A stretch of 64,000 nucleotides of DNA from contig BQJR01000004.1 of NCBI GenBank assembly GCA_021604805.1, forward strand, positions 372,001 to 436,000, in the 5' to 3' direction. The notes beneath the pieces are model-generated. The model worked only from the letters and a program-made list of their open reading frames with translations, searched no databases and was not told where the DNA came from. Position 1 is the first letter of the stretch; each line of letters opens with the position of its first letter. The stretch comes from Planctomycetota bacterium (GTDB taxonomy: Bacteria; Planctomycetota; B15-G4). Below, in pieces: positions 35,493-38,989 of the stretch. Position numbers and translations under genes: made by a program.

Positions 35493-35991
35493 TCAGGAAG
35501 CGGCCACCGGCACGGCGCGTTGCTGCGACGCGCGCTCCACCTTCACCGGCGACACTTTAAAGGTCTCGACGAAGATCGCGTACATGCAGGGCACCACGAT
35601 GAGCGTGAGCAGCGTGGCCACCGTGAGTCCGTAGATCATCAGCCAAGACATCCCTTCCCAGAGCGGGCCGCCGCTGAGCGCGAGCGGCAACAGGCCGCCG
35701 ATGGTCGTGAGCGTGGTCATGGCGATGGGCGGCAGACGCAGCTTGCCCGCCTCCACGAGACAGGCGCGGAACTCCAGCACTGTGAGCCCCATGATCGGCC
35801 CCGAGCCGTCGCTGGCCTCGGCGCGTTCGCGCACGATGCGGTCGGCGAACTCGATGAAGATGATCGCCGCGTTCACGACCACGCCGAAGAGCGAGAGCAA
35901 GCCGAGCTGCGGCATGAAACCGAAGGCGTTGCCCGTGATCCACAAACCGGGGAAGGCCCCGATGAGCGCGAGCGGCAGCGGCTCGAGCGCG
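35493..35991 (-). pseudogene. C-terminal fragment of an RND efflux transporter
   Basis: About 165 residues match only the last transmembrane helices of an AcrB-type RND permease: PLPLALIGAFPGLWITGNAFGF, LGLLSLFGVVVNAAIIFIEFADRI, AMTTLTTIGGLLPLAL and the final YGLTVATLLTLIVVPCMYAIF, ending in a short tail before the stop. The preceding roughly 850 residues of a normal pump are missing; sequence similarity stops near 35990, where the opposite-strand kinase begins. On its own it cannot transport. Either a deletion/inversion joined two genes or the assembly did. Confidence 0.8.
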
Positions 35992-37375
35992 TCCACCAAA
36001 GACCTCGACCCACGCATGCTCGCGCGCTTCCTCGAAGAGGCGCAGGTCACGGGCCAACTCGAACATCCCGGTATCGTGCCCGTGCACGAACTCGGCCTCG
36101 ACGAGAACGGCCAGGTGTTCTTCACCATGCGCCGCGTGCAAGGTCGCGACCTCGAACACGTGTTCGGCCAGGTCGCGCGCGAGGACGACGGCTGGACGAC
36201 CACGCGCGCCATCGGCGTGCTCGTGAAGATCTGCGACGCGATGGCCTACGCGCACAGCCGCGGCGTGGTGCACCGCGACCTCAAGCCGGCCAACGTGATG
36301 GTCGGGCGCTTCGGCGAGGTCTACGTGATGGACTGGGGCCTCGTGCGCGTGAAGGGTCAGAGCGATCGTCACGATCTGCGCCCGGCAGCACCCGCAACCG
36401 AACCCACGCAAGCGACCGACGCAGCGCGTGAACCCGACGCCACGCGTGAACCCGCGGCAGCGCCTGAACCCGCGGCAGCGCCTGAACCCGCGGCAGCGCG
36501 CAGCGTGCAGACCGACCAGCGCGTGGACGGTTCGGGGCAGAGTGGCGACGCGCTCTACACCATGGATGGCGACGTGCTCGGCACGCCGTCCTACATGCCG
36601 CCCGAACAAGCGCGCGGCGAACTCGAACGCCTCGACGCGCGCAGCGACGTCTACTCGCTCGGCGCGATGCTCTACCGTTTGCTCGCCGGCGTGGCGCCCT
36701 ACGCCGACGGCACCAAGAAGCGCAGCGCACTCAAGGTCGTGGAGGAGCTGCGCGCGCAAGCCCCCACCTCGCTCGCCTCGCTGGCGCCGCACGCGCCCGC
36801 CGAACTGATCGCCATCGCCGACAAAGCCATGGCCCGCAAGCGCAAGCATCGCTACGCCGACATGTCGGAGTTCGGCGCCGACCTGAGCGCCTTCCTCGAA
36901 CAGCGCGTGGTCGGCGCCTACGAGACCGGCGCCGTGGCCGAGGCGCGGAAGTGGGTGCGTCGCAACCGGCCCTTGGCGGCTTCACTGGCGGCGGGTCTGC
37001 TCGTGCTCGTGGGCGGCCTGGCCTACAGCCTCGTGCAGAAGCAGCGCGCCGACGACAACGCCGCGAACGCGCTGGCCGCCGCCACGCTCGCCGAAGATCG
37101 CCGCATCGAGGCCGACGCCAACGCCGCCGAAGCCGCGCGTCAGACGCGCGTGGCGAGCGAGGTGAACGCGTTCCTCAACCGTGATGTGCTCTCGGCCGTC
37201 GACCCCGAAGTGCAGGGAATCAACGTCACCGTTCGCGAGGTGCTCGCGGAAGCAGGCACGCGCCTCGCGGGTCGCTTCCCGAACGAACCACTCATCGAAG
37301 CCGAGCTGCGCGCCACGATTGCGAACAGCTTCTTCACGGTCGGCGACTTCGAGGCAGCACTCGCGCCGCGCGCTC
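35992..37375 (+). pseudogene. Ser/Thr protein kinase fragment lacking the N-lobe, frame broken near 37365
   Basis: The readable part starts STKDLDPRMLARFLEEAQVTGQ, the alpha-C region of a PknB-type kinase; the glycine loop and the ATP-binding VAIK lysine, normally just upstream, are absent. The C-lobe is well preserved: VVHRDLKPANVM with the catalytic Asp, VMDWGLV in place of DFG (a known variant), GTPSYMPPEQARGE and DVYSLGAMLYRLL. A transmembrane helix (ASLAAGLLVLVGGLAYSLV) and coiled linker follow. The frame stays open to 37590 but similarity switches to another frame near 37365, where the TPR part continues. As it stands it cannot be an active kinase. Confidence 0.8.
36448..36501. repeat. 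18-bp in-frame minisatellite in the kinase fragment
   Basis: Three near-identical 18-bp units (36448, 36466, 36484) with core gaacccgcggcagcgcct encode EPAAAP repeats in the activation-segment loop between VMDWGLV and the GTPSYMPPEQ motif. Confidence 0.85.
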
Positions 37376-38989
37376 GCCTTGCGCAGCGAACATCTGGGAG
37401 CCGACGACCCCGCCACACTCATGGTGGCCGGTGGCACCGCGAAAGTGCTCACCGCGATCGCCGAGTACGACGAGGCGATCGCGCTGCTCGCCGACACGCT
37501 GGAGCGGTCGCGCGTCGTGCACAGCCCGGCGCACGCGGCGACGCTCGAGGTCATGCGCGACCAAGCGCTCGCCATCTCGAGCGACGGTGACCTCGCGCGC
37601 TCCGTCGAGATCCTGTACGAACTGCGCGAGCTCGAAGACCCCGACTCGCTCGACGCCTTGCTCACGGCCAGCAACCTCGGCGTCGCGCTCTCGAGCCTCG
37701 GGCGCCTCGACGAGGCCGAACGCGAACTCACGCGCGTGCTCGAACTCAACATCGCGCTGCGCGGCGAGAACCGCCTCGAGACCTTCACCTCCAAGAGCAA
37801 CCTCTCGGTGCTGCTCGTCGATCTCGGCAGGTACGAAGAAGCGTGGCGCCTGGAGAACGAAGCCTACGAGGGGCGTCTCGCGCTGCTCGGCCCGGACCAT
37901 CAGCGCGTGGGCCAAGGCCTGGTGAATCTCGGCGTGGTGGAGAAGGAGATGGGCCGCTTCGACGATGCCGAGCGTCACATCCTCCAAGGCATCGCGACCC
38001 TGCGGCGCTCGCTGAGCGAAGAACACGATCGCGTGCTGCTGGCCGTGAACAACCTGTGCACGGTGCTCGGCGCCCAAGGTCGACGCGACGAAGAGCTCCA
38101 ACTGCTGCGCGCGAACACCGCCACGCTGCGCCGCGTGCACGGCGACGAACACCCCACGACCATGCTCTCGATGAGCAACCTCGCGATCCTCTATCTGGAG
38201 CTCGGACGCATCCCCGAGGCGAAGACCGCGCACGAGGAGATCCTGGAGATCGAACGTCGCGTGCGTGGGTCCGATCACCCGAGCACGCTCTCGACCATCG
38301 AGAACTACGGCAACGTGCTCTACACGCTCAACGACTACGAGGGCGCCATCGCCGCCGTGCACGAAGTGCTCGCCACGCGCACGCGCGTGCTCGGCCCCGA
38401 TCACCCCGCGGTGGCGCGCACGAACTTCAATCTCGGCATGGTGCTCAGGTTCTCGGGCAACACCGTCGAGGCCGTCGCGCCCTTCGAGAAGGCGCTCGAG
38501 ATCTGGAGCGCCTCGATCGGGCTCGACCACCTCGAAGGCGCCACCGGCGTGATGCAGCTCGCCGATCTCGCGCGCGGCCGCGGCGACCTCGCCGAAGCCG
38601 TCGAACTCTACAAGCGCTCGCTCGAACACTGGCGCAACGTCGACCCGCAGAGTGCCGACGTCGGCTACGCGCTGCACCAGATCGCGATCACGGACCACGA
38701 CGCCGGCGAGTTGGTGGAGGGCTTGACCTACGGGCGCGAAGCCTTCGAGTTCCGCCGAGCGCTGCTGGGCCCCGATCACGTCGACACGCTCACGACCGAG
38801 TTCGTGCTCGCCGGCATCCTGCACCGACTCAAGCAGTGGGACGAAGCCGAAGCCCTCGCGCACGACTTCCACGATCGCTCACTCGCCACCCTTGGCGCCG
38901 GCCACGAGCACATCAGGATGGGCCGCAAGGCGCTCTTCATGATCTACAACGAGCAGGGTAAGAGCGCCGAGGCAGAGGCCTGGCGCTGA
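37362..38989 (+). CDS. TPR-repeat region, out-of-frame continuation of the kinase fragment
   Basis: About 540 residues of tetratricopeptide repeats of the kind found behind Planctomycetota kinases: RALALRSEHLGADDPATL, SNLGVALSSLGRLDEAERELTRVLEL, LVNLGVVEKEMGRFDDAERHIL and eight or more related units to the end. It lies in the frame two bases on from the kinase part; a joined reading near 37365 gives GDFEAAL...RALALRSEHLG, the expected TPR sequence. A stand-alone product could begin at ATG 37421. The frame change is either a real frameshift mutation or a one-base error. TPRs normally mediate protein binding. Confidence 0.75.

Follow-up and report, generated by a model that had tools for sequence, protein, structure and literature searches.

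Truncated remnants of an RND efflux permease and a Ser/Thr protein kinase adjoin at one point in a Planctomycetota genome, probably through a deletion

Two unrelated genes, an RND-family efflux permease on the minus strand and a Ser/Thr protein kinase with TPR repeats on the plus strand, were found to have lost their 5' parts at a common point in a Planctomycetota genome, probably through a simple and fairly recent deletion that spanned a divergent gene pair. The window, that is, the whole stretch of 64,000 nucleotides that was analysed (G000:C4:372001-436000), lies in the interior of a 588,845-base contig. The host genome comprises 4.47 Mb in 11 contigs, with an estimated completeness of 89% and contamination of 0.1%. 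Deletion is a well-known source of pseudogene remnants in bacteria, and the present case is ordinary pseudogene formation of this kind rather than a new system. It shares with such remnants two genes cut at one breakpoint and a later frameshift, the breakpoint being known here from the assembled consensus. Coordinates within the window are collected in Table 1.

Table 1. Features around the junction, in window coordinates
Feature	Position	Strand	Basis
RND-family efflux permease remnant, C-terminal 163 codons with own stop	35493..35984	-	Pfam ACR_tran 896-1020/1021; match to G005:C73
Junction, end of RND homology to start of kinase homology	35978..35998	.	Matches to G005 in 20-base bins; six kinase homologues compared without gaps
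Remnant of a Ser/Thr protein kinase, from alpha-C helix through C-lobe, plus membrane segment; first frame, N-lobe missing	35998..37354	+	Pkinase profile; homologues with N-lobe
Frameshift in the kinase gene	37345..37370	+	Codon-score frame plot; homology aligned against G008:C433 and G001:C35
C-terminal part of this kinase with the TPR repeats, in the second frame	37355..38989	+	TPR_12/TPR_10; alignment to TPR homologues

On the pump side, only the end of the ACR_tran profile (PF00873) is matched, and the N-terminal five-sixths of the protein are gone. Relatives of the pump that carry names are all or nearly all Planctomycetota. An intact gene is present in Planctomycetota bacterium OFTM49 (G005:C73, JAJDEQ010000164.1), which belongs to the same family as the host and served as the reference for the pump comparison. 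The two permeases share the C-terminal 163 residues at 86-89% protein identity and the same stop region, with 85% DNA identity over 35544-35980. The OFTM49 permease is encoded by a single open frame of ~1137 codons preceded by an adaptor gene, whereas its ~970 N-terminal codons and the adaptor are absent in the host. The initial annotation had recognized that only a C-terminus remained, but its estimate of ~2.5 kb for the loss was too low, ~2.9 kb being missing when measured against OFTM49. A functional RND permease has two repeated halves, 12 transmembrane helices and periplasmic domains in ~1000 residues, with an adjoining gene for a membrane-fusion adaptor; the piece lacks this architecture, and no ortholog of the OFTM49 adaptor was detected in the host assembly (best match <=26% identity, E 6e-4). 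Among 42 related RND loci, the frame is open for at least ~950 codons upstream in most, and the shorter ones are mostly cut by contig ends. Two of the 42 (L091 and L099) have a short open frame, of 429 and 77 codons, upstream of the matched C-terminus where the locus is uncut, possibly reflecting broken genes or sequencing errors.

Differences between the RND piece and OFTM49 at the three codon positions amount to 0.10/0.05/0.32, compared with 0.13/0.09/0.31 for rpoB of the same two genomes. The piece thus keeps a coding-like divergence pattern, its third-position value being close to that of rpoB, with little drift after truncation and no neutral change piled up; this suggests that the truncation is young relative to the split between the host and OFTM49. 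A foreign or horizontal origin of the piece, to which the 85% identity had drawn attention, was left unsupported by the comparison with rpoB.

Similarity to kinases starts at ~35998, between strand beta-3 and the alpha-C helix, and matches to the Pkinase profile (PF00069) cover positions 40-150 and then 156-252 of 263, with none from 1-39. In nearly all homologous loci examined, an N-lobe (GGMG...AMKV, comprising the glycine loop and an AMKV-type strand) lies directly upstream of the alpha-C segment; here, the frame upstream of the kinase homology is the antisense of the RND piece only, which agrees with the earlier description of a kinase starting at alpha-C. Planctomycetota Ser/Thr kinases with TPR repeats (PF00069 plus TPR; for example, the 1604-codon frame of G008:C433) share with it the alpha-C to C-lobe region, HRDLKPANV, DWG, the membrane segment and the TPR tail, whereas the window kinase differs in having no N-lobe and in a frameshift ahead of its TPR part. 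The predicted translation keeps the catalytic motifs of the HRD/DFG type expected of an active kinase (HRDLKPANV and YVMDWG), but not the glycine loop and beta-3 lysine that such a kinase also carries. A search for an intact ortholog using the TPR part returned only paralogues, up to ~40% identical. Inside the kinase, an 18-base tandem repeat of ~4.4 copies (36421-36500) encodes AAPEP-type repeats that lie after the DWG motif and before the end of the activation loop.

The frameshift, which the initial annotation did not mention, is a second lesion in the kinase: at ~37354 the homology departs from the first frame after GDFEAA, is picked up in another frame at RRALALRSEHLG, and continues through the TPR repeats to 38989. 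In a scan of ~301 kb of the host genome containing ~227 genes, it was the only clear case, the two marginal signals resembling ordinary gene overlaps. Because other frameshifts are nearly absent, the consensus is considered accurate and the kinase truly decaying. The gene thus carries disabling lesions, a 5' truncation and a frameshift, in otherwise accurate sequence, as is characteristic of a pseudogene.

At the junction, matches to the OFTM49 pump drop from 16-20 to 4-6 per 20 bases at 35980/35981 (from ~85% identity to background), so that ~20 bases at most separate the end of the RND homology from the start of the kinase homology. The claim that two unrelated genes are cut at one point is therefore upheld by the comparisons with OFTM49 and with the kinase homologues. 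The bases in between may belong to the poorly conserved beta-3/alpha-C linker of the kinase. The two genes had been described as head-to-tail, with an inversion needed in addition to a deletion. Both in fact point outwards from the junction, with 5' facing 5', and because they are divergent, one deletion is enough and no inversion is needed. A search of the junction for long repeats yielded only short GC-rich matches, and no transposase-like gene was seen beside it, leading to the rejection of a mobile-element or repeat-mediated event. Microhomology might be present in the serine/glycine-rich stretch 35970-35990.

It is proposed that the RND permease, with the adaptor gene upstream of it on the minus strand, was once the divergent neighbour of the plus-strand kinase-TPR gene. 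A single deletion would have taken out both 5' parts and everything between them, the adaptor included, joining pump codon ~970 to the beta-3/alpha-C linker of the kinase. The leftovers are dead, the pump retaining its last few transmembrane helices only and the kinase lacking its ATP-binding lobe in addition to being frameshifted; the junction itself would be present in the living genome. Comparison of relatives, as the initial annotation had advised, was informative in part: the pump is intact in OFTM49, where no kinase was found beside the pump operon, and an intact pump and kinase as divergent neighbours were found in no relative. Synteny of the flanks is lost at family distance: the relatives are different genera, and five family members shared no gene order with the window on either side.

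The missing parts were not recovered elsewhere in the host assembly, a result to be read with its 89% completeness in mind, as they could lie in unassembled sequence. Matches to the N-terminal half of the pump were paralogues only (24-35% identity), each within an open frame of 1028 codons or more, and none of the 50 PF00069 matches was an orphan N-lobe. An inversion that kept both halves would have left the missing ones joined elsewhere and was discarded, neither being in the assembly. Their absence from every contig is also what would be seen if a misjoin or collapse within the same genome, such as that of a strain-variant bubble, had omitted several kilobases and run together two genes that the cell still carries complete, and the assembly is of metagenome type. 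This explanation is nevertheless considered unlikely: the junction falls within, not at an end of, a 589-kb contig in an assembly of 11 contigs, no long repeat that could mislead an assembler was found there, and in a consensus nearly free of frameshifts the kinase carries one independently, so that this gene is in decay however the junction arose. A compound rearrangement, in which genes originally far apart were brought together by inversion or translocation plus loss, would fit the finding that pump and kinase are adjacent in no relative, but it is unneeded given the orientation, the assembly contains none of its reciprocal products, and it appears improbable. Both recombination-type loss and an assembly join, as raised initially, were reasonable candidates; a chimera of two organisms from the same sample, however, is very improbable. 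It was suggested by the 85% identity of the RND piece to OFTM49, which exceeds that of other left-flank matches to this genome, but with third-position divergence so similar in rpoB (0.31 vs 0.32), this value is expected of an inherited conserved gene. Furthermore, tetranucleotide usage in the 8 kb on each side of the junction fits the host genome (0.83 left, 0.89 right, against a 5th-95th percentile range of 0.78-0.89 for the genome itself), most chunks from family members scoring lower (0.56-0.79), and the independent frameshift in the kinase likewise speaks against a cross-genome join. It is very improbable that the shortened kinase frame, with a possible start at ~35964 in antisense RND sequence, gives rise by translation to a pseudokinase-like protein that has taken on a new function.

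The main consequence is for annotation: the two pieces should not be labelled as a functional pump and a functional kinase, and there is no need to regard the window as chimeric. In Planctomycetota, kinases can form large families that grow by lineage-specific duplication, with TPR as a common partner domain (PMC11032199). Loss of single family members by deletion and frameshift would be expected, and the deletion favoured here is an unremarkable case of gene loss, the lineage having dozens of genes for kinases. Separately, a lone relic of ~90 residues from the same kinase subfamily, cut at both ends, was observed in another genome (L017 1501-1762; G002:C14:17890-18151), with 73% amino acid and 81% nucleotide identity to window positions 36114-36375. 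It is flanked by catalase-peroxidase-like and arylsulfotransferase-like genes, named by eye from their translations, and is consistent with ongoing turnover of kinase genes.
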